Positions 1 to 61,239 of a DNA stretch of 61,239 bases are shown here, in pieces. The notes beneath the pieces are model-generated. The model was given only the letters and a program-made list of their open reading frames with translations. It had not been told where the DNA came from and ran no database searches. The translations under genes were made by a program, and so were the position numbers. The first letter of the stretch is position 1. Every line of letters begins with the position of its first letter. Origin of the DNA: an uncultured Nitrospirota bacterium (GTDB lineage Bacteria; Nitrospirota; Nitrospiria; Nitrospirales; UBA8639); assembly GCA_937139405.1 (NCBI GenBank), contig CAKZPV010000023.1, positions 1-61,239 of the forward strand, read 5' to 3'.

Positions 1-77
1 TTCAATACCTGGCCAGATGCACCAAGGCCACCTAAAAAATCCTTTATGCCGTCATTAAATCTTGCTGCTGAATTAAA
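1..77. repeat. Left copy of 77-bp terminal redundancy
   Basis: Identical to 61163-61239. Coding sequence runs through it in one frame, so this is the overlap left when a circular genome was linearised, not a biological end. 77 is a common k-mer overlap length in short-read assembly, which points to an assembly origin. Confidence 0.95.
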
Positions 78-6294: not shown

Positions 6295-7388
6295 TACCCG
6301 ACCCAATCAATTGTTCCTGAAACGACGGCCTTTAAGACCTTTTCTTTTTCGAATATTCGTATACCTCCTGAACCAATATTTAATTTTACCAGTTGATCGC
6401 CCGTAAGCGTTTCACGAACAATATATCTGTGCCTAGACATTTTAAAACTAGATAGGTAGAATGCCCAATCTGGGCGGGGTGGTACTTCGACTTCGATATT
6501 TACATTCATTTGGCCACTCATTGAAACTGGTTGCTTACCATATAGAAATCTATCGGTGCCGCTGATACCACATGGTATTTCAGTACAAATCTCCACACCA
6601 CTGCTGTCAATATTGGCCGAAGCGGGACAGCCTTTTAGTACCGCCCAACCACCATTCGGTTCAAAAAATACGATCTGTCCTAAATCGGGTGGGCAACATC
6701 CATCTTTAACAAAATACTTGAATGTCTTACCTGTGTATACCCGCACCTCTACCCGAACAATATTTGCCAAGCTGACGCCACCTACATGATTCTTTCCACC
6801 AATCGGAATGACGGTTATGCCTTCATTTAGTGAAACCACGGTGCCTGTTTCGGTGCCATTGCCATCTATCCTGACCACCGACACCGTTCCACTGCCACCC
6901 GGACTAAATATGCTGATGTACTCATACTGATTACGGCACATATTCATGACCAATGGTCGATAGGTCAAAGCCTCAACAGTATTTGCAGCAAATATGTCAG
7001 CCTCCCAATCTTGCACGGTGGCATTAACGATCTTACGTGTATCACTGTCTGTATTGACATTCACTTGAGAAGTGCAATTGTCCTGGTCGTAAGTGATGTC
7101 ACCATACTTGATATAGACTTCTTTTACTGCCTCATCGTCTTCATAAGCAGCGGTAGCACCAAGTACCGGTATCTTTGGCCGAAACAAACGAGCAATGTCA
7201 ACCATTCGGTCAGGACTTACATTGATGGTGCCCTGGCCAACTTCCTCGATTTCAGTCAACGCATTTCCGTCAAAGAAAACTTGATAACCTGTATTGTCAT
7301 CCTCGTTACCTGAGCCCTGTAGAGTGAACCTACCACAGCCGCCACGGACTGGGAAGAAAGCATCTGGATATGTTGTAATACTTGACAT
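6294..7388 (-). CDS. Distal-tail-like structural protein (364 aa)
   Basis: Gene between the tape measure and the large baseplate protein, where siphoviruses encode the distal tail protein. The sequence is beta-rich with many Gly and Asn residues. It has several Cys residues in the middle, including KDGCCPPDLG and LKGCPAS, and a C-terminal segment (YIVRETLTGDQLVKLNIG) that may be a second beta domain. Start and stop junctions on both sides are TAATG overlaps, so it is translationally coupled. I do not recognise the family; the assignment rests on gene order. Confidence 0.6.
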   Translation of the reverse strand: MSSITTYPDAFFPVRGGCGRFTLQGSGNEDDNTGYQVFFDGNALTEIEEVGQGTINVSPDRMVDIARLFRPKIPVLGATAAYEDDEAVKEVYIKYGDITYDQDNCTSQVNVNTDSDTRKIVNATVQDWEADIFAANTVEALTYRPLVMNMCRNQYEYISIFSPGGSGTVSVVRIDGNGTETGTVVSLNEGITVIPIGGKNHVGGVSLANIVRVEVRVYTGKTFKYFVKDGCCPPDLGQIVFFEPNGGWAVLKGCPASANIDSSGVEICTEIPCGISGTDRFLYGKQPVSMSGQMNVNIEVEVPPRPDWAFYLSSFKMSRHRYIVRETLTGDQLVKLNIGSGGIRIFEKEKVLKAVVSGTIDWVG

Positions 7389-13188: not shown

Positions 13189-13974
13189 CTAGTTTTCGCA
13201 ATTATAATGGGTCGTGGTATTAATACAGTCATTCGCTAATATCGCTACGGATGGGCTGCTCGGCTGCACACCATTCTTAACCCGCATATAGTATCCTTTA
13301 CCTGGGTCCGTGGTTTGGCTATATGGTACTGCTGTCATGCTGGCATATTGGGAACCATTCTTGTAATACTTGACGCGCATTTCCTCACAATCATCGCTAA
13401 ATGCCCATAACCTCAGCCAAAAGACAATGTGATCGTTTGTACAATCGTCATCACCATAAGGTAAGCCTACCGTTACAGTCACATGATCAAGCCAAGAGAC
13501 AAAATACCAAGTAGTGTTGCTACTGTTGTAGGCCATCAAAAGCCAGTCATCCCTACTATCACCATTTGGATCAAAACGAACATCAAAGACATCTGCACTT
13601 CTCTGCTTAAGCCTTCTGTCATATTCTTCCATTGCTTCCTGAGACATGAAGATCTTGCCATCTTTTTGGTGTCGATGGTAAGTGTTCTTCATCTCTTCAC
13701 TGGTTGGTGCACGATCGAAGTACTTGTGTGTCACACCATCGATCAATTCACTTTTAACAAAGCCCTCTTTTTTCATGGGATTGTAATGATGAATCAAGGT
13801 CTCACTCATCGGAGTTTCGATGTATTCGGGAGGCTCTGGCGTAAGCCCTTCCGGCGCCACGTCTTGGCTAATGACAAGGTCATCTGTTAGCGGTTCAGAC
13901 TTATCGCAAGCAGTAAATAGTGTGGTTAACAGCGCTAGACATAGCGCGAGTGCAAAGAATTTTGTATTCTTCAT
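13189..13974 (-). CDS. Lipoprotein of unknown function (261 aa)
   Basis: The start at 13974 (MKNTKFFALALCLALLTTLFTACDKSE) gives a classical type II signal peptide with lipobox FTAC. After a Pro/Glu-rich linker there is a charged segment (EYDRRLKQRS) and a beta-rich domain with paired Cys (DDDCTND, SDDCEEM, ANDCINTTTHYNCEN). Not a virion protein by context: it lies among small accessory genes and has its own terminator. Phage lipoproteins often block superinfection or alter the host surface, but nothing here proves that. Confidence 0.7.
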   Translation of the reverse strand: MKNTKFFALALCLALLTTLFTACDKSEPLTDDLVISQDVAPEGLTPEPPEYIETPMSETLIHHYNPMKKEGFVKSELIDGVTHKYFDRAPTSEEMKNTYHRHQKDGKIFMSQEAMEEYDRRLKQRSADVFDVRFDPNGDSRDDWLLMAYNSSNTTWYFVSWLDHVTVTVGLPYGDDDCTNDHIVFWLRLWAFSDDCEEMRVKYYKNGSQYASMTAVPYSQTTDPGKGYYMRVKNGVQPSSPSVAILANDCINTTTHYNCEN

Positions 13975-13993
13975 CTGCAATTTGGTTTGCAAG

Positions 13994-27970: not shown

Positions 27971-28297
27971 TTAGCCATACTTCCAAGTTTTTTCTTTTTC
28001 CAATACGAGTTCCTTTTTCAATTCAATAATTGTCTTTTTGCTCTCACTTTGAACCTGCTGGACTTTTTGCAATTCTGCTACGATATTTCGATACTTTGGA
28101 TGCTCTTTTACGTCCATTGGTCTGACGGCTTTCAGTTTTGCGACTTCATCCTGTAGTTCAGCCAACTCAGATTTCAACATCCCGTTTTCAATTCGCACCT
28201 GAGATATGATTTCTCTCAAACCCTGTACCACCTCATCCTTGGTGTATTCCCGCGACAGCTTGAGCAACGTTCTTTTATCCCAATCGTCCGACATCAT
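27971..28297 (-). CDS. Coiled-coil protein coupled to integrase (108 aa)
   Basis: An N-terminal small helical part (DDWDKRTLLKLSREYTKDEVVQGL) is followed by an almost unbroken coiled coil. It starts in an ATGA overlap with the recombinase stop, so the two are made together. Recombination directionality factors of serine integrases are diverse small proteins often encoded nearby, which makes this a candidate; no family evidence supports it. Confidence 0.5.
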   Translation of the reverse strand: MMSDDWDKRTLLKLSREYTKDEVVQGLREIISQVRIENGMLKSELAELQDEVAKLKAVRPMDVKEHPKYRNIVAELQKVQQVQSESKKTIIELKKELVLEKEKTWKYG

Positions 28298-29898
28298 GAC
28301 GCAATTCGTTCAAATACGTTTACTAAACCATTGAAAACCAGTGGGGTAGATGGTTGCATTTCATTCCCATTGCGGGTACATATTGCACTTTCAAGCAAAT
28401 CTCTCCTCATATTAAGGTTTTTATCTATCCTTAATCCCTTGATAATCTTATTCTTAGAGAAAAAAGGCTCCAATGCCGACGTGGTTGCATAACTCTGTTT
28501 ACCCATCACCAAAAAGTTGTCAAAAAACAAACCAATCAATTCGTGCTTTTGGTCTATGTTGGCAGCTTGATAGTACCATTCAAGGTTCATGAAGCTACTT
28601 TGATGCTTCTCGACCTTCCCGATGAGTTTATGCTCCATCGTGTCGAAGCTATTGATCTTAATATTGGCTTCCGTCTTGAGCCTACTGTACTTCATTTTCC
28701 ATTTCTTGTACGTGTGGCTGTCGATCATGTCTTGGATGTACTTATCTTCCAACTTGCTTTCTTGCTCGTGGATTTTCTGTAGCTCTCGTTTCGCTTCTTT
28801 GACTCCGCTGGCGTAATCCTTGATGCTGACAGATAGATTATGACGTAGGCCGATCATTAGCATTTCAGCATCTCTTTTGTTTAGTGAGCCTTGCGATATG
28901 ATGTCCAGCATTAAATCGTCTGCTTTCTTTGCGTTGAAGGTCTGCTTAGGACATTTTGGGCAGCGATAATACCAATACGTCCCTCCATTACCGGTGGTCT
29001 TACTGCCAGTCATTATTTCTAAGCATTCGGGACACCTGGCAATCCCTCTAAGTGGGAGCTCTGGACGGACAAGCTTTCTATTTCTACGTTGGCGGCCACT
29101 CAATTTATCCTGCACTTGGTAGAATGTGTCTTTTGACACAATAGGCAAATGCATTCCATCTTTTAATTTGGTAGGATACTTACGATAGGCTGGTACCTCA
29201 ATGATTCCGGCATAAGTAAGGTTTGAAAGCATCCTCTTGATTGCATCATGGCCGCGACCTTTCCACCCTTTTTGCTTGGCATATGTCTGCAATTCTTTAA
29301 ATTCTGCGCCACCCAAGTACTTGTCATAAACCTTTTTGACCACTGGCGCAGCAATGGGATCTATGACAATGATCGGCTTTCCTGCCTCATCTCTGCGGTT
29401 CAAATACCCGTATGGAGCCCTGCCAATGAATCTTCCCTCATTTTTAGCTTGCCAGACCCCGAATTTAGTTCGATCGCTGATCCTAAGCCGTTCAAATTCT
29501 CCGTCTACCAGGATGCCGGCACGGATCTTGAAGGACATCGCATCGTCTTCAATCAATGCATACGGCTCCATGGCGCTGAGCACCTTGACATTCCACCGGT
29601 TTTCAAGTTTGTGAATGAGCTGCAGACCGTCAATCGTGTTCCTGATTAGACGATCGTACTTCATTACGACCAGGCAATCAACTTGTGCACGATTCTTGTA
29701 AAGTTTGGTTTCCATTCGCTTCCACGATGGCCGATCAAAATTCTTTGCGCTGTAACCGTCATCGATAAAGGTTTCGACTATCTCGATGTTGTTGCGTTCG
29801 CAAAACGATGTGTTGTAATGCACCTGGCCAGCAATACTAAAATGTGACTGGTCTTCGTCACTGATCCGGATGTAGAGATATGCTTTGCGGTTGATCAT
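28294..29898 (-). CDS. int: Large serine recombinase / integrase (534 aa)
   Basis: Resolvase domain at residues 1-150 with catalytic S13 in YLYIRISDEDQ, and the conserved RNTIDGLQLI region. The Recombinase domain follows at about 160-260 (RAPYGYLNRR, GGAEFKELQTYAKQKGWKGRGHD), then a zinc ribbon with CPEC..CPKC at about 290-330, and a C-terminal coiled coil with a tail. The length is usual for phage integrases of this class, which recombine attP with attB without host factors. Start overlaps the upstream stop as ATGA, so it is expressed with the replication genes. Confidence 0.93.
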   Translation of the reverse strand: MINRKAYLYIRISDEDQSHFSIAGQVHYNTSFCERNNIEIVETFIDDGYSAKNFDRPSWKRMETKLYKNRAQVDCLVVMKYDRLIRNTIDGLQLIHKLENRWNVKVLSAMEPYALIEDDAMSFKIRAGILVDGEFERLRISDRTKFGVWQAKNEGRFIGRAPYGYLNRRDEAGKPIIVIDPIAAPVVKKVYDKYLGGAEFKELQTYAKQKGWKGRGHDAIKRMLSNLTYAGIIEVPAYRKYPTKLKDGMHLPIVSKDTFYQVQDKLSGRQRRNRKLVRPELPLRGIARCPECLEIMTGSKTTGNGGTYWYYRCPKCPKQTFNAKKADDLMLDIISQGSLNKRDAEMLMIGLRHNLSVSIKDYASGVKEAKRELQKIHEQESKLEDKYIQDMIDSHTYKKWKMKYSRLKTEANIKINSFDTMEHKLIGKVEKHQSSFMNLEWYYQAANIDQKHELIGLFFDNFLVMGKQSYATTSALEPFFSKNKIIKGLRIDKNLNMRRDLLESAICTRNGNEMQPSTPLVFNGLVNVFERIAS

Positions 29899-35280: not shown

Positions 35281-35850
35281 ATGCTAGATCGTATTAAAGA
35301 ACTCATGAAGCTAGAGGGGATCAAGACTTGGTATGGTCTTGCAAAGGCTACTGGCGTGGGTGAGAGTACGTTCCGGAGGGCCGAGGATCTTGGTAACAAA
35401 CTAAGTATTGACACACTGAGAAAGCTTCTTAATTATTTTAAAAACTGGGATGCAAGGTGGATTATTACCGGTGAGACACGACAAAAGGTTAGTCTACCAG
35501 ACATGGAGGATTTGATCAACCTCCAAGCCTTAGCAGCAGATCTGCCTGAAGAAGCTATTCTAGTAGTTGAGGATCATGACAATTCGACAATAATATACCA
35601 GGGCGATATTTTGAAGATCAGAAAGGTAGATGAAATCAGAAATACCGACATGGGAATTATTGTTTCACCGAAAATACAGCCAGCCGGGGCGGCTCTTGGA
35701 CATGTGCATTATTTTCGAAACGACAATGGTGATGTCGCAAACATAAATATTACTCCATACTCGGTATCTAGTGGTAAGGACTATCCTCTTAAGCCTAAGG
35801 ATGTTACCTGTACCTATAAAATTGAGCTAAGAATCACGCAACACATATAG
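35281..35850 (+). CDS. CI-like repressor A (189 aa)
   Basis: N-terminal XRE helix-turn-helix (KTWYGLAKATGVGESTFRRAEDLGNKLSIDTLRKLLNYF) and a C-terminal beta domain (EAILVVEDHDNSTIIYQGDILKIRK) like a LexA/CI dimerisation domain, with no clear Ser-Lys pair, so self-cleavage is not evident. It is preceded by a cluster of palindromes, which fits autoregulation. The degenerate sensor kinase follows 109 bases later on the same strand. Confidence 0.75.
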   Translation: MLDRIKELMKLEGIKTWYGLAKATGVGESTFRRAEDLGNKLSIDTLRKLLNYFKNWDARWIITGETRQKVSLPDMEDLINLQALAADLPEEAILVVEDHDNSTIIYQGDILKIRKVDEIRNTDMGIIVSPKIQPAGAALGHVHYFRNDNGDVANINITPYSVSSGKDYPLKPKDVTCTYKIELRITQHI

Positions 35851-35958: not shown

Positions 35959-37806
35959 ATGAGAACGCACCCAAAGTGGATACTGTGGGTACTTCTTATT
36001 GTGGGGCTTAGCACAGCGATTTCTACACGTAATCATTACCGTGATAAGGCACGTAAAACAGCCTATCAGCAAAACACACAGTTAAACCACCTGGACTCAC
36101 TCATTCAAAGGAATGAACTTGAGGCCGCTCGATATTTGATTTCTGAATTATCTAATTCTGATTTCAATCAAAAGAAAGAAGATAACATCTTCATTCGCTG
36201 GCTTTTTCTACAAGGGAAGTATCATTATTATGCCCAAGAATACCCCTTGGCCGCTGATTTTATGAAGCAGGCTGAGATAGAGGTATATGAGATCGACGAG
36301 CCTGTCGAGCATCAATTATATTATTTATTGGAGAGGTGTTATTACCATATGGGTTCCAAGCATTTTCGTGCACTTTTCAGTGAAAAATACTTGAAAGAGG
36401 CTGTCCAGGAGGATCAATATCGATTCATCCGAACTAAGCTTCTAATGCGCATTGCAGGAATTTATTTTAAAGATAAGAAGCAGGATCTATATGAGGATGC
36501 GATTGAAAAGGCCGATTCTATTGCTAGGGATCTAAACGACCCATCTCTTATTATTCAATGTGGATTGATCAGAAATGCATTTAATAAATCTCGAACACCA
36601 GAACAGAAACTAGCTTATCTAGAAAGTCTGAAGCACCTTGTCTCAGAAATGTCTCCGCCAATCAAAAACACTTACTATAAACAGATTTCGGATATACATT
36701 ACTTCAAGTTAAAGGATATGGATCAGGCCAACAGCAACAACGGTCTAAGCCTAGATGCTTCTAAGCATATTCCTGACCACCATGAAAGGTTGCGTAAGGT
36801 TTCTGAGAATTTCATTCTTTTATCTGATAGCGAAATTAAACTGGGAGACTTCGAGTCTGCCGCTATACACCTTGACTCAGCCATGAAGTATAAAGATTAC
36901 ATAGCTGCCAGATGGGTCCCGTATCTTTATGGAAATAAGCTTGAAACTCTAATGGCTCTCAATGACAATGATAGTCTTATCCTTGACATGCACTACCAAT
37001 CAATTGCCGCTTATGAGGACAAGTCTGGAGCTATCCATAAAGGAGAAATGGAAGCTTTGAACAGATTCATGGCTAGAGAGGTAAACTATTACCAAAGAAC
37101 ATTGAAGCTCGTTAAGACACAGCGCAATCTGTTCGTATCCCTTTCTGCAGCGCTTTTGGCGATTCTGTTTTTAGTTAGACATGTCTATAAGCAAATTCTC
37201 ATTCGCAGAGCACAGGACGCTGAAATTAAATCACTTCGTGCCCAATTAGCAATGGCCCTAATCAAGCCCAAGGTTCTAATTCACCTTCTAAAACAAATGA
37301 CTCACGACACTGCTGGTGCACAGCAGAGAGTGCGAAAGGCCTTCGGTTACCTATCTGGGTTTCTAAGTTGCCTCGTGAGTGGTGAAGAAGTGAGATTGAC
37401 CGATGAATTGGAAACAATCAAAAACTACTTGTCACTGCACACACTTGTTCACACAAATGAGAAAATAGACTTTAATGCGGAATTGTCAATAGATACCGAA
37501 GTTGTAATACCTAAGTTGTTCATCCTATCAATCGTCGACTACCTAGTTCGTTGCAACAGCTACACTGAGAAGCTTGGCATTCTAATACAAATAAAGAATT
37601 TAGATAGCACTACGCTGAAATGCATAATAAAGAGAACAGGATTCAGTGAGAAGAGAAACCAAAAGGGAAATGTATTTCCAATTCTTGAAAGGTATCTTTT
37701 AGAATATGGATGCAATCTAGAATTTGATGTGAACGAAAAACTAGTTCTACACATCCCTTTTGATAAGCCACTGGGTAAATACCCGAGGGCGTTTTCTCCT
37801 AGTTAG
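35959..37806 (+). CDS. TPR sensor protein with degenerate LytS-type kinase region (615 aa)
   Basis: Membrane segment at residues about 7-23, TPR-like helical repeats at about 40-370 (expected outside the cytoplasm), a second membrane segment (LFVSLSAALLAILFLVRHVY), then a region aligned to LytS/YehU kinases: AEIKSLRAQLAMALIKPKVLIHLL at about 422-444, later VRLTDELETIKNYLSLH. In the family this reads NPHFLFN; here P437 is followed by K438, so the phospho-acceptor His is lost. The Asn box and Gly boxes of the ATPase are not recognisable. Likely a pseudokinase that senses envelope signals. Confidence 0.7.
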   Translation: MRTHPKWILWVLLIVGLSTAISTRNHYRDKARKTAYQQNTQLNHLDSLIQRNELEAARYLISELSNSDFNQKKEDNIFIRWLFLQGKYHYYAQEYPLAADFMKQAEIEVYEIDEPVEHQLYYLLERCYYHMGSKHFRALFSEKYLKEAVQEDQYRFIRTKLLMRIAGIYFKDKKQDLYEDAIEKADSIARDLNDPSLIIQCGLIRNAFNKSRTPEQKLAYLESLKHLVSEMSPPIKNTYYKQISDIHYFKLKDMDQANSNNGLSLDASKHIPDHHERLRKVSENFILLSDSEIKLGDFESAAIHLDSAMKYKDYIAARWVPYLYGNKLETLMALNDNDSLILDMHYQSIAAYEDKSGAIHKGEMEALNRFMAREVNYYQRTLKLVKTQRNLFVSLSAALLAILFLVRHVYKQILIRRAQDAEIKSLRAQLAMALIKPKVLIHLLKQMTHDTAGAQQRVRKAFGYLSGFLSCLVSGEEVRLTDELETIKNYLSLHTLVHTNEKIDFNAELSIDTEVVIPKLFILSIVDYLVRCNSYTEKLGILIQIKNLDSTTLKCIIKRTGFSEKRNQKGNVFPILERYLLEYGCNLEFDVNEKLVLHIPFDKPLGKYPRAFSPS

Positions 37807-38517: not shown

Positions 38518-39384
38518 ATGAATGATTACGAAGATTCAGACCTCTTTTCTAGCATTTTGAATAGCATTATATTTGGTGCTTTGGTTCTCTTTCTTTTTGG
38601 TCACGCGTACAATTCATTGAGACTACTTGGCACAGGGGAATTCGCTGATTGCACAGTCACGGGATGTAGTGAACATAGAAGAGAAAGGCCCGAAGACATT
38701 ACAATTTACTATACATACAGCTTTGATTGTACTGATATAAAAATCACCTCCACGAGGAAAGAGTGCATTAGGCATTTTAATTATGACTGCATCCTATTTG
38801 TTTCGGAGAAATTGGGTGAGGCAGTTTTTGTCGGGAAGAAGAATGGGTTTTTGGCGATATGGAGCTACAATCGTTTAGGTGGTTTAGCGGCTTTTTGTCT
38901 TTTTATTGTGATAATTGTTATTATGATTATTTACGGGCTGACAAAATTGATTCCAGAGGTCAAAATCGTTTGGCAGGGATACATTAGTAATGAAAGTGCC
39001 GGGATCATAGTGAGGATGAAAAAAATATCCGATGTAATCCTATTGATTTCAGCATCTTTAATAGCTGTTTCAGCCCCTCTACTTGTAGGAAAGGTGGCTA
39101 TATCCCTCGAAGGAAGAAGTATCATGCTAAATGGACTTTTAATGCTTATAATTATTAGTTCAATTTCTTTTGGACCGTTCTTGATATTGTTTCTATTCAA
39201 CCAATTCAAGAGGAATATAAGCTATCATGTCAAGATTGCAAGAAATATTATTACAATCATCGCTTCTTCCAGGTTTTTGTACTCGATCTTAGTTATACTA
39301 TATAGATCGGTTTACAAGGACCTTGAGATAGGTAGCTTTAGTGAGTTGCTTTTGATTTTATTTGAAGTACTAACTGAATCATGA
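38518..39384 (+). CDS. Multi-span membrane protein (288 aa)
   Basis: Hydrophobic segments near residues 15-35, 125-145, 175-195, 205-230 and 245-265. Between the first two lies an exported-looking loop with Cys (DCTVTGCSEHRR, DCTDIKI, RKECIRHFNYDC), as in DUF3592-type proteins. Coupled by ATGA to the secreted protein downstream. A membrane accessory protein expressed from the lysogen is plausible. Confidence 0.6.
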   Translation: MNDYEDSDLFSSILNSIIFGALVLFLFGHAYNSLRLLGTGEFADCTVTGCSEHRRERPEDITIYYTYSFDCTDIKITSTRKECIRHFNYDCILFVSEKLGEAVFVGKKNGFLAIWSYNRLGGLAAFCLFIVIIVIMIIYGLTKLIPEVKIVWQGYISNESAGIIVRMKKISDVILLISASLIAVSAPLLVGKVAISLEGRSIMLNGLLMLIIISSISFGPFLILFLFNQFKRNISYHVKIARNIITIIASSRFLYSILVILYRSVYKDLEIGSFSELLLILFEVLTES

Positions 39385-40139
39385 GCGCCCTTCTTTTGCT
39401 AATTCTTTTGCTGCTGCTGCCGGTGCTGTCGTTTGGACAGGATGTGCATGGGACATTTATTTTTGCCGGACATTGTAAGGAGGGAATTGTCGCACTAGTT
39501 GACTCAAGATTAGGTATTCCGAGTGATTTTCCTGGAAGAGATCTGTGCTACGTAGAAAACTTTGACAAAACCATTATTCTAGGAGAATCAGTCATAATAA
39601 CTGCAGGTCAAGGAGCAATAGACGGAGTCTCTCTGGGTAATATTTTTACCGAGTTACCAAGTGGAATGGGGCTAGGTACCTTAGACCATTTTACAATGGC
39701 TTTAAATGCATCCGAATGCCTCCCAATGAATAAATTCATATCTATTGAAAAGAGTGATGGCCGTTACGGCCTCTACTTTTCTAATCGTGGGTCACCTGCC
39801 AAAAAGGTAGAATATGGCTTTTTAGAAAACCATGACTCATTAGTAATGACCTATAACACTGATTTGCCTTGCAGGACAGTCGCTTCAATTGTTACTGATG
39901 CGCTTAAGGACGTTCAGCAAAGATCTCCGATTGAAAGAATAAATACGGACCTCACTGAAATATACGTTGAATCAAATCAACTATCTATTGAGAGGGGCAA
40001 TAATACAGTCCACTGGGATGATTTTACAGAAATGTATAAAGATCTATCAGAAGGCAAGGTTCCATATGTTGTTGCAAAGGGGCAATGGGCCCCGAATGTT
40101 AAGGCTGAACTACGCTTTCGCTATGAGGCTAGAAAATAA
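39381..40139 (+). CDS. Secreted protein (252 aa)
   Basis: Signal peptide SALLLLILLLLLPVLSFGQ, with cleavage before Gln. The mature domain is beta-rich, with GHCKEGIVALVDSRLGIPSD and KSDGRYGLYFSNRGSP. The start overlaps the upstream membrane gene (ATGA), so the pair may act together in the envelope. No known family seen. Confidence 0.65.
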   Translation: MSALLLLILLLLLPVLSFGQDVHGTFIFAGHCKEGIVALVDSRLGIPSDFPGRDLCYVENFDKTIILGESVIITAGQGAIDGVSLGNIFTELPSGMGLGTLDHFTMALNASECLPMNKFISIEKSDGRYGLYFSNRGSPAKKVEYGFLENHDSLVMTYNTDLPCRTVASIVTDALKDVQQRSPIERINTDLTEIYVESNQLSIERGNNTVHWDDFTEMYKDLSEGKVPYVVAKGQWAPNVKAELRFRYEARK

Positions 40140-40455
40140 AGTGAATGGCCTCTCTGTCGCTTGGAATTATTTTCCACAATCCAACCACTCGAACAGAATC
40201 GATTAAATCATTTGCTCTCTGAAAAGCTATCGATTCATTTGGTGCTAATTCGCTGGTAAATTTAGATTCTACAAAGGCCTGCTTAACCAGAACGAACATC
40301 GTGTCAACTTGAACTCCCTGTCCCCACTGAGTTGAGGGGGCCAATTCTGTCGTCCATACATGCAAGTCAGAAAATATTTCAACTTGGTTTATCTCATCGG
40401 TTTTTTGACCGCTGCAACCAATAATTAATATTAATCCAAAAACTATTTTCCACAT
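40129..40455 (-). CDS. Putative lipoprotein (108 aa)
   Basis: The start at 40455 gives MWKIVFGLILIIGCSGQK, a lipoprotein signal with lipobox IIGC. An ATG at 40515 would place the start inside the operator and spoil the signal. Convergent with the secreted-protein gene over 11 bp. Confidence 0.6.
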   Translation of the reverse strand: MWKIVFGLILIIGCSGQKTDEINQVEIFSDLHVWTTELAPSTQWGQGVQVDTMFVLVKQAFVESKFTSELAPNESIAFQRANDLIDSVRVVGLWKIIPSDREAIHFIF

Positions 40456-40507
40456 CTCTTGACAAATTACAAATAAATATAGGGCTAATCGAACTCGGTT
40501 GTCAAAA

Positions 40508-40523
40508 TAATCCATCTAGTTTA
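40508..40523. promoter_or_regulatory. Operator upstream of repressor B
   Basis: TAATCCATCTAGTTTA: right arm exact, left arm 5 of 7. On the plus strand it runs into TTTATTTG, one change from TAnnTTTG, 106 bases before the repressor B start. This suggests that repressor B controls itself through the common operator. Confidence 0.5.
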
Positions 40524-40628
40524 TTTGTCAAAATTCTTTACTACCTTCGGCTGCATATCTTACATGATTTACTAAATAAACTGTAAGATGTGGTTGTGAA
40601 ACTATTGAGTAATCTAAATAAGGTAGAT

Positions 40629-41258
40629 ATGTCGTCCATTATCAACAACAGATTCATCAAATTCATTGAGTTAACGAAGATTGAAACGAAAGAGAGCTAT
40701 CGCGGAATAGCTAAAAGGATCGGAATTACACCTCAATACCTGAGTAATGTAATGAATGGCAAGCCGGTCAGCGATCAGACTATTGATAAATTGATTGCTG
40801 AATATCCAAGTGCAAGAGGATACATATTCGGAACCGATGCTGCTGCATTGAAAAAGACTAAGTATTTTCTAATCACGATGATAGATGGCTCTGATTCGGA
40901 GGAGCAATACCCCTATCAATTGAGTTCAGGTAATTCTGACGAATATGTAGCTTATCAAGTTCATGATGATTTAATGGAAACTAGAACCGATCTCAGCATT
41001 AGGAATGGTGATATTGTGATCTGTAGAAATGTCCCTCGCGACGCTTGGCCAAACCTGTGGACGAAAAGATACTACCTGATCAAGCATAAAACGCTGGGTT
41101 ACATCTGCCGATATCTCGAATCGATTAAAAAAGGATTTCTGACATTGGGTACGGCAAATGATTTATTCTCGCACGAAAGTAAGGTTGATATTGAACACGT
41201 GCAGGAGATATATCTAGTGCAAGACTTGCACACCAAGAGATTCAAAAATATTACCTAA
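40629..41258 (+). CDS. CI-like repressor B (209 aa)
   Basis: Start chosen at ATG 40629; a GTG at 40590 is possible. N-terminal XRE HTH (ESYRGIAKRIGITPQYLSNVMNGKPVSDQTIDKLI). The C-terminal half (LMETRTDLSIRNGDIVICRNVPRDAW, then YYLIKHKTLGYICRYL) resembles the S24 fold. The catalytic Ser is not in the usual GDS context, so cleavage is doubtful. It lies next to a copy of the TAAACTA operator, making it the best candidate for the reader of that motif. Confidence 0.75.
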   Translation: MSSIINNRFIKFIELTKIETKESYRGIAKRIGITPQYLSNVMNGKPVSDQTIDKLIAEYPSARGYIFGTDAAALKKTKYFLITMIDGSDSEEQYPYQLSSGNSDEYVAYQVHDDLMETRTDLSIRNGDIVICRNVPRDAWPNLWTKRYYLIKHKTLGYICRYLESIKKGFLTLGTANDLFSHESKVDIEHVQEIYLVQDLHTKRFKNIT

Positions 41259-53326: not shown

Positions 53327-53872
53327 TCAATTATGATCCTTGTCTGGAAATATCTTCCTCCATTGCTTGCCAAACCAACTAAGCGGAATGGTTAGCGGTG
53401 CTGGACCTGGATATTTTTGATTGATGTAATCTCTCAGGCATCCACCAGGGCATGCAGTCGGACGAAAGTCTGAATGCACATACACTGGTAGATCCCCTAA
53501 AACCAGCCTGAGAGACGCAATAAGTTCGTCTAATGATTCTAGCATGACGTAGGGCGGCATTTCTCGATCCCAATTTCCTCGAAGGGCTATGCCAAGGTAT
53601 TTTGTGTTGTGGCCACCACAGTGGTAAGAGATGTCATCTACGTGGTTGGTATGATTCACCTGGCCGTCGTAGTCAATTACAAAATGATATGAAATTCCTT
53701 TGCCCCATTTTTGAATGTGTAGCTTGGCGGCCTCCTCGATCGATATATTACCAGCAAAGTGGTGGATCACAAAGCCTTCCAGTTGCTCGAGCCTGCGCTT
53801 TTTGAACGGAACTTTTCGAGGTAATGCATTTATTAGATTAGTCACGCCCATCCGAATAGTCTTTTCCACCAT
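53327..53872 (-). CDS. N-acetylmuramoyl-L-alanine amidase endolysin (181 aa)
   Basis: Amidase_2/PGRP fold: FVIHHFAGN (first zinc His), YHFVIDYDGQVNHTN, YHCGGHNTKYLGIALRGN, and the C-terminal YVHSDFRPTACPGG with the second His and the Cys. It cuts the amide bond between sugar and peptide in peptidoglycan during lysis. No signal peptide, so release depends on a holin. Overlaps the metzincin-like gene by 31 bp. Confidence 0.92.
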   Translation of the reverse strand: MVEKTIRMGVTNLINALPRKVPFKKRRLEQLEGFVIHHFAGNISIEEAAKLHIQKWGKGISYHFVIDYDGQVNHTNHVDDISYHCGGHNTKYLGIALRGNWDREMPPYVMLESLDELIASLRLVLGDLPVYVHSDFRPTACPGGCLRDYINQKYPGPAPLTIPLSWFGKQWRKIFPDKDHN

Positions 53873-54627
53873 GGGATCTTTTTTTTTGGTTGTTCAACTT
53901 TGGCTACAAATTCTTTAGTTGGATCGTCTGGATCTCGGCCAGCCTGAATCAATATGTTTCTACGAATAAATTGTGCTGCACGATCCAAACCGATAGCAAC
54001 CATTCGGTCCGCGCCTTGCGTGGTATTGAGTGCATGCCTTGTGTCGTCTGTTACTTTATTGTTGGGGTCATAATATGGGCCCATTAATTCACCTTTGACC
54101 TCAGAGTGTCCAACACCTTGGCCATGGTAAACCTCGTGTTCAATCCCTTTGGGAAAAGAAAACTTTCCTTTAGATGCTTTAATGTCCCAAGCTACTTCAA
54201 GGCTCATAAAGCAGTCAAGAGAGTATGGGTATCCAGGTAAGTACGAGTACTGAACGGCTAGCGTTCCAGGAGACCTTGAGAATAGAAAAGGCGATTTGAA
54301 AGAAGAACCATCCGGCATATGAACCATATCGTTCTTATCTACCCAGTAGAAGGTCTGTTCGGCTTCGTCAAAATTCTCACTACTCTTCAACCTCAATGGC
54401 CAGTTTTCATGGTTTATATTTGATAGGGCATCCTTAATTAAGGCAATTTGCAAGAACGTCTCCAAGTTCTTTTGTTGCTCAGGGTTTGCTAGATGCCAAT
54501 AGATAATCTTTTGACCATCAACTTCTTTCCAGGGCAGCTTTCTATCGCTCAAAATACTGAACTCAGCAGCCTTTGGCACCGCCCACGCTTCAGGTGGTGC
54601 ATCATGAGAACAAACAATCTTTTTCAT
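53842..54627 (-). CDS. Metzincin-like metalloprotease of lysis module (261 aa)
   Basis: Residues 164-174 read HEVYHGQGVGH, a perfect HExxHxxGxxH zinc motif, followed by S175 and a possible Met-turn ELMGPYYD at 180-187. This is the matrixin/astacin (metzincin) signature. The N-terminal 150 residues have mixed folds. The C-terminus (KKKIPWWKRLFGWA) is an amphipathic basic-aromatic tail that may touch membranes. No signal peptide. It lies between holin-like genes and the amidase. Confidence 0.7.
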   Translation of the reverse strand: MKKIVCSHDAPPEAWAVPKAAEFSILSDRKLPWKEVDGQKIIYWHLANPEQQKNLETFLQIALIKDALSNINHENWPLRLKSSENFDEAEQTFYWVDKNDMVHMPDGSSFKSPFLFSRSPGTLAVQYSYLPGYPYSLDCFMSLEVAWDIKASKGKFSFPKGIEHEVYHGQGVGHSEVKGELMGPYYDPNNKVTDDTRHALNTTQGADRMVAIGLDRAAQFIRRNILIQAGRDPDDPTKEFVAKVEQPKKKIPWWKRLFGWA

Positions 54628-55300: not shown

Positions 55301-55822
55301 CTATCGATTGAATTTCATAAATAAGGCATAGCTGACATGCCATTTATTTGGCTCTAATTTCTTTACTGCCATTGCTGCTTGACCGTCTCCGATCGATTGA
55401 TATTTCCATCCAAAGTATTCCCCTTTGTTTGGATAAAGAGCAAAGGATGCCAGAGCTGGATCATAGAACCTGTGATGTGGATAAGGATTGGCTGCTGAAT
55501 GTATTTTAATATAATTCCCCCTTAGTGATGATTCAAAAGAATCCTTCGAATAGCCATAATAGAATTTCTTTAGATCTCGTAAGACTATGTGCCGATCGCT
55601 TGTCAGCACCTCCAGTTCTTTTGTGTTTACGATGTAGTCAATCTGAACATGCTGGTGAAAGGAATGAACCAGCGATTGCCATGGCATAGGATTTGGAAAC
55701 TTAGTCCAATGTGGGGCATCATAAACACGATAGTCGTTGGCTTTTAATATGGCTTCTGCACTCGACGTATCAATCTGCCCAAATAGTGACAGCGGAAATA
55801 ATATGTAGATCAAAAGCCTCAC
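55301..55822 (-). CDS. Secreted protein in lysis region (173 aa)
   Basis: Signal peptide RLLIYILFPLSLFGQ, with Gln at the cleavage site. The mature part has YDAPHWTKFPNPMPWQSLVHSFHQHVQ and a large aromatic/His content (NPYPHHRFYDP). Could act in the periplasm during lysis, for instance at the outer membrane. No family seen. Confidence 0.55.
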   Translation of the reverse strand: MRLLIYILFPLSLFGQIDTSSAEAILKANDYRVYDAPHWTKFPNPMPWQSLVHSFHQHVQIDYIVNTKELEVLTSDRHIVLRDLKKFYYGYSKDSFESSLRGNYIKIHSAANPYPHHRFYDPALASFALYPNKGEYFGWKYQSIGDGQAAMAVKKLEPNKWHVSYALFMKFNR

Positions 55823-56424
55823 TTGAGCCTAAAATTGGGTAGCATCCACATGCCTTGATGAAGAAAGAAAACTGCTGTAGGAAAAGCCATGGCAGTGCTG
55901 ATGTCAGGGATATAAAAGTACAGAGATGGGATATCAGCTGCGTATCCAATCAATGCGGTACCTGAGACTAGCATCATAGCCCAACCCCAAGGTTTCTTGT
56001 TTCTCCTAAAGAAGGATAGGGAGAAGATTAAAAACAATGCAACTGTTGCCCAGCTGGGCACGTTCTGCGCCAAAGAAAAATACAGGGGGTCATTGAATGC
56101 AGGTAGAATATTTATTGCTTCAGAATGATAATACCAGGCACTTACAGCGCCCATTGCTATTAAGCTAAACCAGCCCGCTAAGAAATCTCTTGACCTTGGT
56201 TTTTGATGGACGTGGAATATCATTGCTAATGATGCAACGATGAATGAAAGTGCTGTTACAGGCTTCATAGTAACCCAATCAGGTCTTATCTGAGCAACAT
56301 CTGTAACACCAATGCACCACCCAATAAATATTAAAACTGAAAAAGCCAGAAGCATCCAAGGCAACGAATAGTACAGCGCCATTTTGATTGAGTATTCACG
56401 ATTTAATTCATTGCGTAGATTCAT
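55819..56424 (-). CDS. Multi-span membrane protein resembling a MASE sensor domain (201 aa)
   Basis: About six hydrophobic segments. The first half reads IFIGWCIGVTDVAQIRPDWVTMKPVTALSFIVASLAMIF, like the membrane sensor domains at the start of bacterial kinases and cyclases (the ...MKPxTAL.. pattern). No kinase or cyclase follows. Coupled by ATGA to both neighbours. Confidence 0.55.
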   Translation of the reverse strand: MNLRNELNREYSIKMALYYSLPWMLLAFSVLIFIGWCIGVTDVAQIRPDWVTMKPVTALSFIVASLAMIFHVHQKPRSRDFLAGWFSLIAMGAVSAWYYHSEAINILPAFNDPLYFSLAQNVPSWATVALFLIFSLSFFRRNKKPWGWAMMLVSGTALIGYAADIPSLYFYIPDISTAMAFPTAVFFLHQGMWMLPNFRLK

Positions 56425-56750
56425 TTCATTTTCTTTTTTAGGTAGTCTGATACCAATTTATCTCGATGCTTATTCAAGTATCCAAAAACACCAAAGACAA
56501 ATGAGAAAAGAGGTAGTGCTAACGCTGCTGTCATCAATGTAATAAATGAACAGTTCCACGATTCAAAGAACTCACAGCCTTGTGGAGCAACGTAAATTGC
56601 AGCTATTACGCCAAGAATAACTTTGGTTATTATTATTTTCAAACTGAGGGTATCCCAGCTGATCATCATAGCCACCACTGATCCAGATAAACCAGTGAAA
56701 ATCGCTGGTAGCAAGTCCACAAAATAGTGCATGTCGTTTTCTCTTGTCAT
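56421..56750 (-). CDS. Holin-like protein (109 aa)
   Basis: ATG 56750 or 56732 (MHYFVDLLPAIF). Three hydrophobic segments (AIFTGLSGSVVAMMISW, IITKVILGVIAAIYVAP, FITLMTAALALPLFSFVFGVFGYL) and a Lys-rich end, the usual layout of small phage holins. It opens the lysis cassette after the fibre genes. Confidence 0.6.
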   Translation of the reverse strand: MTRENDMHYFVDLLPAIFTGLSGSVVAMMISWDTLSLKIIITKVILGVIAAIYVAPQGCEFFESWNCSFITLMTAALALPLFSFVFGVFGYLNKHRDKLVSDYLKKKMK

Positions 56751-57030: not shown

Positions 57031-59445
57031 TTATTTCGCTGCCCAGCCAGTATTTCCAGTTCCACTTTCTTTCACATAAAATGACGTTCCAGCACCTCCG
57101 TCCGATCGATGGAATGTAGACCCCACGCCAGCCGTTACCGCACTTTCTGGACTTCCTGAGCCGGTTACAATCCTAATGTCATTGGTTTCGTCTAGCGTTA
57201 GATCTGAAGTAATTAATACCGTACCATCCAATTGAATATCAAAGGTCCCATTGTCGGTATCTGATCCAATTAGTACCTCACCACCTCCGGTTAATTTGAT
57301 CAATACTGGATTTCCTGTACCACCTTGAAATATAATATCATCATTCGATCCTACACCCCCTTGAATCGTGAAATCATTACTACTAACCGATCCGAACGTT
57401 ATTTGGTTAGATCCATCTAAGGCAAGCATATTCATAGGTGATCCGCCTGCATCATATATAGCATACGCCCTGCCATTTGCGAGACGCATACCCACCTGGG
57501 AATAGATATATCCATTAGACTGTAGAGTACCGCGGCCGTAATTCGTAGCAGTACCGACACTCACTATTCCACCACCCGTGAAATAGATATTATTTCCGTC
57601 CTGATCTATATTTCTATGCCCTGTTATTGGTGCGTCATCTGTAAAGAAAGTCGGGAACCATAGATCACCTCCGATATATGATTTCGGTGTGCTTGAAAAA
57701 CCTTTGCTTCCTGCGATCATGGTTAGCTTAGAAGTATCAGCCAATCCTTTGAGATCGTATACAAAGTTGGTTCCTGTGCGCTCCATGTTGTTAATCCAGG
57801 ATATTGGGCCTGTGTTCGCTGTCGTATTGAGACTGAAACCCACATTGATGAAGTAGCAATCCTCGACAATCAACCTGGATGCATAGTCAACCTTAATGGC
57901 TGGATTGTTCGGATCACCACCCGATTGAGGTGTAATCTTAGTATTAGATATCTGATATGTTGGATGCACCGCACCTGAAGGAAACTTGCTACCTAGGTCA
58001 AAGATGGCTGCCGTCTTAGTGTTATTGAGTGGAATGTCTTCGGTATACCCACCACGTAATTGAAACCAATTATTCTCTGCGATCACCGCACTGGAATCGA
58101 TAGATTCCATTATTAATTCTGTAGCGACTAATCCCATGCTTGCGCTATCTTGCTTCAGTCCTATATCGGCTGCTGTGATCCAGCACTTATGCAATGTGGT
58201 TGTGGTTCCTTGGATGTTGGACGTATATGCATGTATGCCAATGTCTTCAATATGCTTGATTCTAATTTCCCTGATTTCAGTATTGATGCTTGCCGACATA
58301 CGAATACCATCTTTGAAATACCTATCGCCAACACCTCCATCAATTGTTATTCTCTCAAATAGAGGAGCGTTTGGATGAATTAATTGAACCGCACAAGAAG
58401 CAGGCGAAAGAGCCTGGATATGCATGTTAGTTAGACCAATACTACTATGATAGCTCGATGTCGAATCGATCACAAAAACCGGCTTACTAGCGTCGTTCAA
58501 GTCAGCTAATATCATCGAACCGACCTTACCGTTTAAATCGCCTCCTGTGGTCGCTGTGCCCTTAAAATGAATATTTGGCTTTATGCGTACACTATCAGTT
58601 AAGGTGACCGTATCGGGTAGGTTTATTCGGTAGGCATCTCCGATTTCATAACACCAATCCCTCGCACGTCTCAATACCACCTCACCGGCTTCTGATCCCT
58701 TGTCGAAATGGCTGTATTGGTATTCCAACCCATCAGCAAGCAAATAGGCATAACTGCCACCTGTGGGCACCAACGTAATTGAATCGATAGTATAACCTAC
58801 TATGCCAGTTGACTTGACTAAGTACTTGGCACCTGTCGTGCGTCGCTCAATTATAGAATTGTTTGGGAATGTCTGAGAATATATATCTGCCAGGTCGTCA
58901 ACAAAAAAGGATCTGAAGTTCTCAAGACTCTGAATGTCAACTCTATGAACACCTAAGCTGTCAATGTTCCTTTGAATAACAACTTCGTTTGCAATGTGCC
59001 TCAATAAGTGAGCGGCGAGCGTATCAGTAGTAATCGTGCTATCTGCAAAACCTGTGATAATTACCGTGTTACCGTTATCAATCGTAAGGCTGTCGTTTGA
59101 ATAGGTAAGGTTTTGAGCTGGAACACCCGAAATAATAGAATCCCGAAGCCATGCAAGTAATGTATCGGACGGAACAATAGATTCTCTAGTACTATTTCCG
59201 TCTTGATTCATCACATAGAAACCATAAGTTTCAATGCTATCCTTTGAATCATGAGCCCATGCGAAGTATGGGATAACTCTCAACGCTGCGGGTGTAAGTG
59301 GATCACTTAAAACTTCATCCATAGATGACATCTTAAATCGCTTATCCACTTCGACTAATATATCATCCTTGATCTTCTCAACTTGATCTTGACTGACTTC
59401 ACAAGCAGCAATGATCAATATCAATGCAAAAATTAAATACCTCAT
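57031..59445 (-). CDS. Tailspike-like protein with lipoprotein signal (804 aa)
   Basis: N-terminus RYLIFALILIIAACEVSQ looks like a lipoprotein signal with lipobox IAAC. The middle, about 250-580, has repeating beta-strand patterns (GLTNMHIQALSPAS, ERITIDGGVG, EIRIKHIEDIGIHAY, VEDCYFINVG) typical of a right-handed beta-helix as in tailspikes. The end (FHRSDGGAGTSFYVKESGTGNTGWAAK) resembles C-terminal tips of phage spikes. A lipid-anchored or exported form would be at odds with ordinary assembly in the cytoplasm. Coupled to the 106-residue gene by ATGA. Confidence 0.72.
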   Translation of the reverse strand: MRYLIFALILIIAACEVSQDQVEKIKDDILVEVDKRFKMSSMDEVLSDPLTPAALRVIPYFAWAHDSKDSIETYGFYVMNQDGNSTRESIVPSDTLLAWLRDSIISGVPAQNLTYSNDSLTIDNGNTVIITGFADSTITTDTLAAHLLRHIANEVVIQRNIDSLGVHRVDIQSLENFRSFFVDDLADIYSQTFPNNSIIERRTTGAKYLVKSTGIVGYTIDSITLVPTGGSYAYLLADGLEYQYSHFDKGSEAGEVVLRRARDWCYEIGDAYRINLPDTVTLTDSVRIKPNIHFKGTATTGGDLNGKVGSMILADLNDASKPVFVIDSTSSYHSSIGLTNMHIQALSPASCAVQLIHPNAPLFERITIDGGVGDRYFKDGIRMSASINTEIREIRIKHIEDIGIHAYTSNIQGTTTTLHKCWITAADIGLKQDSASMGLVATELIMESIDSSAVIAENNWFQLRGGYTEDIPLNNTKTAAIFDLGSKFPSGAVHPTYQISNTKITPQSGGDPNNPAIKVDYASRLIVEDCYFINVGFSLNTTANTGPISWINNMERTGTNFVYDLKGLADTSKLTMIAGSKGFSSTPKSYIGGDLWFPTFFTDDAPITGHRNIDQDGNNIYFTGGGIVSVGTATNYGRGTLQSNGYIYSQVGMRLANGRAYAIYDAGGSPMNMLALDGSNQITFGSVSSNDFTIQGGVGSNDDIIFQGGTGNPVLIKLTGGGEVLIGSDTDNGTFDIQLDGTVLITSDLTLDETNDIRIVTGSGSPESAVTAGVGSTFHRSDGGAGTSFYVKESGTGNTGWAAK

Positions 59446-59762
59446 TTCTTCCTTTTTAGAATTGATTTATGAGTGATGGGTCCCATTTCTTCGGGCTTTA
59501 TTCCGTGGGATCTAGCAATCAAATTAATTTGATATTCAAGGGCATCTAATTCTTGCCTCAATTGAATCCACCTTGATACGATCTTGGCAAAATCCTCCTG
59601 GATGTATGGCGCCAATGGAACGGTATCAAAGATTGGTGCCGCTAATTGTTTATTGGTCAATTCCCTTGCCTTTTGGGCGGCTTCCGAGTAATCCTGTGCA
59701 TTGAGTGGTATGATTACTGTGCAACATGCGATTAAGCAAAAAAATATAATTGAATATCTCAT
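59442..59762 (-). CDS. Small exported protein of fibre module (106 aa)
   Basis: Signal peptide RYSIIFFCLIACCTVIIPLNAQ with Gln at the cleavage site; an alternative lipobox LIAC exists. The mature part is an alpha-helical coiled coil (YSEAAQKARELTNKQ, RWIQLRQELDALEYQINLIARSHG). It could be a chaperone or linker of fibre or spike. ATGA overlaps on both ends. Confidence 0.6.
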   Translation of the reverse strand: MRYSIIFFCLIACCTVIIPLNAQDYSEAAQKARELTNKQLAAPIFDTVPLAPYIQEDFAKIVSRWIQLRQELDALEYQINLIARSHGIKPEEMGPITHKSILKRKK

Positions 59763-59854
59763 TTCGTGATAAATAATTTTGGTCGTGATACCTGAATCAT
59801 GGCAAAGTCTGAACAGGCAAATAGAATTAATATTGAGATCGTCAAAACCTTCAT
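59759..59854 (-). CDS. 31-aa micro-lipoprotein
   Basis: Reads KVLTISILILFACSDF with lipobox LFAC after a hydrophobic segment, then a short tail. Its start overlaps the fibre stop as ATGA, and its stop overlaps the next start as ATGA. If processed, the mature lipopeptide has only about 17 residues. Confidence 0.55.
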   Translation of the reverse strand: MKVLTISILILFACSDFAMIQVSRPKLFITK

Positions 59855-61239
59855 TTCTTTTCTATATCTATTGTGATTTTAATCCCGTCCTTATCAATTA
59901 CTGGCACGGATAAGCCAGCCGGTTTCACTTGATTTAGGAGAGCATTTTCAAGGGCAAGCAATCGATCTTCCTGCTTGGCAACAATGGCCTCTAATACTTC
60001 TTTATCTTTTATTAATTGCTGGACTGCAGCTGTCGTGTATGTTTGTGCCCCATCAACTGACATTGTCAACATTCCAGTTGATTTCGAGGCCATAACCTCA
60101 TGTGGAAAGACAGATTGGTATTCCTGTGCAATATATCCGTGGTATATTCTGTCTTCCATACCGGAGGCATTTATTAGACTATCCTTGTATCTAAAATTGA
60201 CCGGTCGCAAAGACCTCAAAACAGTGTATGGATCTTCGATTGTTGTGATGTCCCGTTTAACTCTTTGATCTGAAAGTGATGACCAAGATCCACCACCCGT
60301 CTTACCTGCTGTCCCGTTAACCTCTAGGTCATAGGTCAGACTAGAACCTCCATTGACAGAAAAATATCCAGTAGCCCAAGCATATGTATTGGCGTCAAGC
60401 TGAATGTTATTGGTTCCGGCCCTTATGATGACAACATCATCCGCAAGGATCTGTATGTCGTCATCTGCTGCATTTCTGGCTGAGATATAAATATCCCCGT
60501 TATCATCGAATTGAATATATTGGTCATTGTCGCTTGGTGTGGCGTCCAATAGTAATTCATGGCCTATTGATGGACCATTTGTTGTACTACTCTGGATCTC
60601 AAGTTGGTCGTCTGGAGCATTTCCTATAAATGCCTCATTATTAATTGTGCTGACTGTGCTTGTGATGCTTTCCTGTGTAGCACTACCAACCAACATCGAT
60701 ATCTGACTAGAAGTAAAATTGATCGACTCACCAGAAGCATTATCAAAATTGTAACTATTCGGGAAAGTCATTCCCCCCGTATCGTCTATGTCAAGGCTGG
60801 CACCAATGAAAAGCGTATTGTTACCATCGTTCCATTGAAAATCGTTGTCTTGATCTGCTACATCAGACCCTTGACCGTACACAATATTTGTATTTGTAAT
60901 AACAGTACCTAATTCGTCAGCACCACCTGACCCCGAATAATTTATCGTGACCGTGTTGCCAGACCTTGATGTGGTAATATCGGTCCCACCTGTGATAGAT
61001 ATCGTTTCTCCGTCTGTGATCTCCGTTGCTGCGGTACCGTCTGCATCCCAAAAGAAGGAAGTCATACCGACATTGTCTACATTATCAGCAAAGCCAGCTG
61101 GTATACTCCCTAAATCAGACCATAAGACTTGTTGCCACCTGACCTCGTCACCTGTGAACCATTTCAATACCTGGCCAGATGCACCAAGGCCACCTAAAAA
61201 ATCCTTTATGCCGTCATTAAATCTTGCTGCTGAATTAAA
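59851..61239 (-). CDS. Tail fibre protein, C-terminal part with S74 chaperone domain
   Basis: This is the continuation of the gene that starts at 3068; the last 77 bases duplicate positions 1-77. A TTG at 61167 could be mistaken for a start, but it is internal and reads as Leu in the context GQVLKWFTGDE. The last 140 residues form a peptidase S74 (intramolecular chaperone auto-processing) domain. It begins SDQRVKRDI, with the expected Ser-Lys pair at about S1320 and K1325, and includes the HGYIAQEYQSVFPHEV segment and a terminal coiled coil. In known family members this domain trimerises the fibre and then cleaves itself off. The stop overlaps the start of a 31-codon lipoprotein gene as ATGA. 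Confidence 0.88.
   Translation of the reverse strand, partial: FNSAARFNDGIKDFLGGLGASGQVLKWFTGDEVRWQQVLWSDLGSIPAGFADNVDNVGMTSFFWDADGTAATEITDGETISITGGTDITTSRSGNTVTINYSGSGGADELGTVITNTNIVYGQGSDVADQDNDFQWNDGNNTLFIGASLDIDDTGGMTFPNSYNFDNASGESINFTSSQISMLVGSATQESITSTVSTINNEAFIGNAPDDQLEIQSSTTNGPSIGHELLLDATPSDNDQYIQFDDNGDIYISARNAADDDIQILADDVVIIRAGTNNIQLDANTYAWATGYFSVNGGSSLTYDLEVNGTAGKTGGGSWSSLSDQRVKRDITTIEDPYTVLRSLRPVNFRYKDSLINASGMEDRIYHGYIAQEYQSVFPHEVMASKSTGMLTMSVDGAQTYTTAAVQQLIKDKEVLEAIVAKQEDRLLALENALLNQVKPAGLSVPVIDKDGIKITIDIEKK
61163..61239. repeat. Right copy of 77-bp terminal redundancy
   Basis: Exact copy of positions 1-77. Removing one copy closes a 61,162-bp circle and joins the two parts of the large fibre gene in frame. 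Confidence 0.95.

Follow-up and report, generated by a model that had tools for sequence, protein, structure and literature searches.

Textbook tail assembly is wholly cytoplasmic, and we know of no tailed phage with a Sec-exported tail fibre; to our knowledge, such an assembly route is not known for the Caudoviricetes. Sec-exported structural proteins do occur in the virions of the filamentous Inoviridae, whose coat proteins pIII and pVIII assemble at the inner membrane during extrusion, unlike the tail fibres of a tailed phage with lytic release. Signal peptidase I (SPI) substrates of Bacteroidetes carry a glutamine at position +1, here called the Q-rule (PMC5837995, PMC10653852). Phage-encoded substrates of this kind have been described from P. 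gingivalis, a Bacteroidota host (Matrishin et al. 2023, PMC10367356), but not as tail fibres or virion proteins, and the phage DGR target proteins of the Hankyphage paper lack signals. A search of the literature for signal peptides or Sec export of tailed-phage fibres, with most subscription journals and preprints outside its range, found none. The view of an earlier note on this DNA that no such system has been described thus holds for the searched literature, but the same arrangement is present, unremarked, in public phage records. Signal-bearing fibre sequences have been public for years, apparently without comment on the pattern.

The locus described here lies in a contig assigned to an uncultured Nitrospirota bacterium, and the window is the whole of the analysed stretch, 61,239 nucleotides. 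An exact 77-bp repeat at its two ends closes the window into a circle of 61,162 bp. A tape measure protein, a head protease of the ClpP type, a terminase, and a large serine recombinase together indicate a temperate tailed phage. The recombinase (28294-29898, minus strand) contains Resolvase, Recombinase, and zinc ribbon domains and resembles Ccr-type recombinases, which suggests a temperate phage that integrates via a serine recombinase. The terminase matched 13 of 50,697 phage records, belonging to Polaribacter, Bacteroides, Flavobacterium, and Cellulophaga phages and two faecal phages. The assembly is Nitrospira-type by RpoB (up to 96% to Nitrospiraceae UBA8639), with a GC content of 45-50% vs 41.5% in the window. 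As nearly all terminase matches are to Bacteroidota phages, the contig has the appearance of a Bacteroidota phage mis-binned with a Nitrospira MAG, and we infer the host from these matches. Consistent with mis-binning, fibre and spike queries matched nothing beyond the window in genomes related to that assembly, of which up to 397 were searched. A host-derived secreted protein with a Peptidase_S74 domain was ruled out, as the assembly has no S74 gene besides that of the window fibre.

Several other genes of this phage were observed in passing. A plus-strand cassette includes a sensor-like gene (35959-37806) for a 615-aa protein with a hydrophobic N-terminal segment and a weak His_kinase match (PF06580), together with two HTH/repressor-like genes (35281-35850 and 40590-41258). 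Three exported-looking proteins are encoded outside the late operon, at 39381-40139 (plus strand, Q-rule-like VLSFG↓Q), 40129-40515 (minus strand, lipobox IIG↓C), and 13189-13992 (minus strand, lipobox FTA↓C), the arrow marking the apparent cleavage site here and below.

The tail, fibre, and lysis genes that concern us are the following.

1 to 3068, minus strand: tail-fibre gene, 5' two thirds; N-terminus at 3068, Sec signal peptide, predicted site AEA↓Q28
3019 to 6306, minus strand: distal tail/baseplate protein, 1095 aa, directly upstream of the fibre, between tape measure and fibre; no signal
7388 to 9940, minus strand: tape measure protein (phrog_27166, E=1.8e-8); no signal
53327 to 53872, minus strand: endolysin (Amidase_2, PF01510, E=1.6e-14)
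55301 to 55822, minus strand: small late-cluster protein, 173 aa; SPI-like signal LFG↓Q, by eye
56421 to 56750, minus strand: holin-like membrane protein (phrog_2359 holin, E=6.5e-5), encoded downstream of the spike
57031 to 59445, minus strand: tail spike, 804 aa, sequence and strand pattern of beta-helix type; predicted lipobox IAA↓C15
59442 to 59762, minus strand: exported helical/coiled-coil protein, 106 aa; predicted LNA↓Q23 or LIA↓C13
59759 to 59854, minus strand: putative micro-lipoprotein, 31 aa; lipobox LFA↓C14, ATGA overlap at each end
59851 to 61239, minus strand: tail-fibre gene, 3' part; Peptidase_S74 near the C-terminus, the last 77 bp repeating 1-77

The fibre gene runs across the contig ends (3068 to 1, then 61162 to 59851, minus strand) and forms a single frame of 1459 codons once these are joined. 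The four genes singled out by the earlier note are real, although the extent given there left out most of the fibre. Its S74 domain is above threshold (Pfam PF13884, E=2.9e-12, 47.1 bits vs a cut-off of 22), and the gene lies in the tail operon beside those for the tape measure and baseplate. The fibre, 31-aa, 106-aa, and spike genes are arranged head to tail, with ATGA stop/start overlaps at 59854, 59762, and 59445. A single-sequence AlphaFold2 (AF2) model of the 106-aa protein (mean pLDDT 67) contains a long helix of 35 residues at 52-86. Near the lysis genes, the frame at 53842-54627 (minus strand) has a weak match to matrixin (Peptidase_M10).

The spike is probably a polysaccharide-binding or -degrading beta-helix protein. 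Its C-terminal 43-51 residues (window 57031-57190) match 225 phage records at up to 79% identity, mainly tail proteins of Vibrio, Klebsiella, and Acinetobacter phages, while the remaining spike has no match in those records; by sequence, this C-terminus is a widely exchanged tip module. A phmmer search of the PDB with the spike found no solved relative, and its AF2 model from two sequences (mean pLDDT 41.6) was too poor for a fold search.

Signals were called with our own script and by inspection. All four N-termini consist of a basic residue, then a hydrophobic stretch, and then a cleavage site. The fibre begins MTLDLSRHWKFVIVAVSFLFLAFNAEA↓Q28, a predicted Sec signal with the site AEA↓Q; the 31-aa peptide begins MKVLTISILILFA↓C14, with a predicted lipobox LFA↓C; and the spike begins MRYLIFALILIIAA↓C15, with a predicted lipobox IAA↓C. 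The 106-aa protein begins MRYSIIFFCLIACCTVIIPLNA↓Q23, with the site LNA↓Q, but an internal LIA↓C13 lipobox is also possible, leaving its class ambiguous. By these predictions the Bacteroidetes Q-rule is obeyed by the fibre and probably by the 106-aa protein. The earlier note had described four consecutive, coupled genes that all begin with export signals, and had held that a lack of predicted signals would speak against it; the open reading frames, the ATGA junctions, and script-called Sec-type signals on all four proteins bear the description out. Export signals are, moreover, not confined to these four, as the small gene at 55822-55301 begins with MRLLIYILFPLSLFG↓Q, a signal that the script missed and that was seen by eye.

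No signal was called on the tail, baseplate, portal, and capsid proteins of the window, including the tape measure and the 364-aa and 1095-aa tail proteins. Across 35 Bacteroidota phage genomes or contigs, 17 of 442 open reading frames of at least 300 aa (3.8%) received a call, a descriptive rate only, since the sample is non-random and over-represents Cellulophaga phages and terminase relatives. Twelve of these 17 are annotated as, or can be recognised as, tail-fibre, pectate-lyase, or spike genes, or directly adjoin such genes and are annotated from MS/MS. Because signal calls are this rare, four adjacent signal-bearing genes are beyond chance.

Relatives of the phage were sought in IMG/VR. 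Pattern scans with the spike, fibre, MCP, 1095-aa protein, and amidase as queries yielded no relatives; a terminase alignment led to 80 loci, and 17 longer contigs among them were read. In one of these, G401, the genes for the tape measure and distal tail are directly followed by one for a 551-aa fibre with an S74 domain and a Q-rule signal (MVIKKLFIWLALLLPFTANA↓Q). A second, G397, encodes a 1033-aa spike homologue (37% identity over 410 residues and 65% over the C-terminal 78), also located behind the tape measure gene and two large genes of the tail. Towards their N-termini the two spikes are barely similar, and the lipobox of the window spike is replaced in G397 by the signal MKKLFLFIAILLFAIQGFS↓Q (SFS... 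GFS↓Q). Both spikes have a signal, but of a different class, and no other sequence argument speaks as strongly for export as the property that counts. With the Q-rule cleavage sites and the lipobox, this homologue supports the first of the two branches offered in the earlier note, that the proteins are exported. Also encoded by G397 is a phage-borne subtilase (L274:18597-19715) that combines a Q-rule signal with a hydrophobic segment at its C-terminus. In G413, a third IMG/VR contig, three Q-rule signal proteins of 348, 195, and 125 aa, one of them thioredoxin-like by eye, are encoded close together near a contig end (L270:2211-4706).

Among cultured phages, Cellulophaga phage phi10:1 has five consecutive genes after its tail genes (gp091-gp095) with signals ending A↓Q, G↓Q, or S↓Q, and its record annotates gp091-gp094 as structural proteins from MS/MS. 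Signals and MS/MS virion annotation also coincide in the records of phi19:1 (gp101-104), phi18:3 (gp085-087), and phi39:1 (gp26). The +1 residue is glutamine in nearly all of these signals, phi19:1 gp104 having FG↓K instead. In phi19:3 and Nekkels_1, signals are present and the proteins are called structural in the records, without MS/MS of their own. Phages phi10:1 and phi19:1 belong to the Assiduviridae and phi18:3 and phi19:3 to the Pachyviridae, and the MS/MS-annotated signal-bearing cases span these two families and one unclassified phage. The first 25 codons of seven partly overlapping homologue pairs differ by 19 synonymous vs 4 non-synonymous changes, which suggests that the Cellulophaga signal is maintained by selection. 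In Maribacter phage Colly_1, a protein annotated as a tail fibre has a lipobox; a lipoprotein matrixin (L068:1408-2007) is encoded near it and an OmpA-family gene. No signals were found on the fibres or comparable tail proteins of phi17:2, phi46:1, P12024S, P2559S, 11b, B40-8, P12002L, and the Danklef/Freya phages. With many Bacteroidota phages lacking a signal, export would be a recurring option and no general requirement.

We propose that these genes form the adhesin module of a temperate Bacteroidota phage, in which the fibre and spike leave the cytoplasm through Sec and only then join the virion, a reading to which we give an even chance. Export of the fibre and spike is well supported by their predicted signals. 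The annotations in the Cellulophaga records suggest by analogy that both are virion proteins in the window phage as well, although MS/MS annotation there may reflect co-purified secreted enzyme. That unrelated cultured Bacteroidota phages have signal-tagged fibres in particles analysed by mass spectrometry suggests that such fibres leave the cytoplasm before attachment.

According to this model, the fibre, the spike, and their two small partner proteins would be made late with export signals, and would cross the inner membrane by way of the host Sec system. Cleavage by signal peptidase I would give the fibre, and probably also the 106-aa protein, an N-terminal glutamine that is expected to cyclise to pyroglutamate, and the spike and the 31-aa peptide would be lipidated through signal peptidase II (SPII). 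Folding of the adhesins would follow outside the cytoplasm; as an S74 chaperone is built into the fibre and the tip of the spike is one that many tail spikes have, both may fold without cytoplasmic help. Finally, the adhesins would attach to the rest of the virion when lysis frees the particles, the holin-like protein and endolysin being encoded just downstream. For the window phage we infer the processing, the folding outside the cytoplasm, the attachment after export, and the virion membership. A broader reading, tentative and somewhat short of even in our estimate, is that in a set of Bacteroidota tailed phages fibres and spikes are routinely exported by Sec, cut by SPI or SPII, matured outside the cytoplasm, and then attached. 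If so, receptor-binding modules of different origin would have only the export signal in common.

The spike lipobox sits uneasily with this model, as it may permit surface anchoring, and a lipid-anchored spike would be an awkward fit to a freely released virion. The lipoboxes on the spike, the 31-aa peptide, and the tail-fibre-annotated Colly_1 protein instead favour exported surface or secreted depolymerases or adhesins that are made late, stay outside the virion, and strip or mask the polysaccharide receptor of the producing cell, which we regard as rather unlikely. Their effect, similarly unlikely in our view, would be to ease release and to block re-adsorption or superinfection; the phage looks temperate from its large serine recombinase, and the P. 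gingivalis phage Q-rule proteins have been suggested to modify the host envelope (PMC10367356). However, comparable proteins are MS/MS-annotated virion proteins in four Cellulophaga phages, and both the tail-operon gene order and the tail-fibre type of the S74 domain and spike tip argue against a role outside the virion. A decoy confined to the lysogen, as the earlier note suggested for exported forms, is less likely and is not favoured by the MS/MS annotation of the Cellulophaga signal-bearing fibre modules or by the location of the genes in a late tail operon. A division of the proteins between the two sites, with part exported to the cell surface and part kept in the cytoplasm and built into virions, would account both for the MS/MS-based virion annotation of such proteins and for the spike lipobox, but no alternative start stands out near the signals, the next methionine being residue 43 in the fibre and residue 39 in the spike, and we consider this very improbable.

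The N-terminus of a fibre is normally its tail-attachment end, and the Cellulophaga fibres are annotated virion proteins; both points would suit hydrophobic N-termini that remain unprocessed and dock the fibre and spike of a cytoplasmic assembly to the tail tip. This second branch of the earlier note is conceivable, but it leaves the +1 glutamine and the lipobox unexplained: the glutamine recurs in nearly all type-I cases and is needless for an anchor, and the exchange of a lipobox in the window spike for an SPI-type signal with +1 glutamine in G397 fits export and not a conserved docking surface. We therefore think it quite unlikely. A different question is whether the 31-aa and 106-aa proteins belong with the adhesins at all. 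A tiny lipoprotein gene that overlaps (ATGA) the gene for a coiled-coil envelope protein, with a holin-like gene and an amidase downstream, resembles a two-component spanin, composed of an outer-membrane lipoprotein and an inner-membrane coiled-coil protein and unrelated to the adhesins. We find this doubtful: the hydrophobic segment of the 106-aa protein ends in the cleavage site LNA↓Q with no evident uncleaved anchor, maturation would leave a lipoprotein of only 18 aa, and the spike gene lies between the pair and the lysis genes.

The Bacteroidota O-glycosylation motif D[ST][AILVMT] occurs 24 times in the fibre vs 9.5 expected and 12 times in the spike vs about 4.5, an enrichment of about 2.5-fold that is absent in the tested tail and capsid proteins of the window. 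In nearly all Cellulophaga proteins and those of G401, phi39:1, and Colly_1 the motif is at or below expectation, and the G397 spike has 9 vs 6. Periplasmic O-glycosylation was accordingly rejected as a general explanation, the motif not being enriched in other signal-bearing fibres, and is a lead for the window phage only.

If export before attachment of the adhesins is correct, virion maturation would come to involve host signal peptidases, glutaminyl cyclase, and possibly glycosylation, and the stage at which fibres are added to the particle would need rethinking. Receptor-binding proteins of Bacteroidota phages are difficult to annotate, and filters that treat a signal peptide as the mark of a non-virion protein may mis-sort genuine ones.

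Fibres with Peptidase_S74, the endosialidase-type intramolecular chaperone, resemble the window fibre in carrying the domain near the C-terminus of a long fibre, but Sf12, the one enterobacterial S74 fibre checked, has no signal, whereas the window fibre has one. Beta-helix spikes and depolymerases with the tip SPE..VTAG.GS..R.DG..GTSFYVKESGTGNTGW.AK have this C-terminal tip in common with the window spike; they are not known as exported, unlike the window spike with its lipobox and the G397 homologue with its SPI-type signal and +1 glutamine. In the fibre/pectate-lyase modules of Cellulophaga phages phi10:1, phi19:1, phi19:3, phi18:3, Nekkels_1, and phi39:1, neither a lipobox spike nor a 31-aa/106-aa pair was found, their signals pass without comment in the records, and the window fibre and spike gave no tblastn match in the Cellulophaga phages. 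These modules are like that of the window in comprising fibre or polysaccharide-enzyme genes with Sec signals, which in the siphoviruses lie close to the end of the tail cluster, and the signal-bearing genes are consecutive in most of them, as they are in the window phage.
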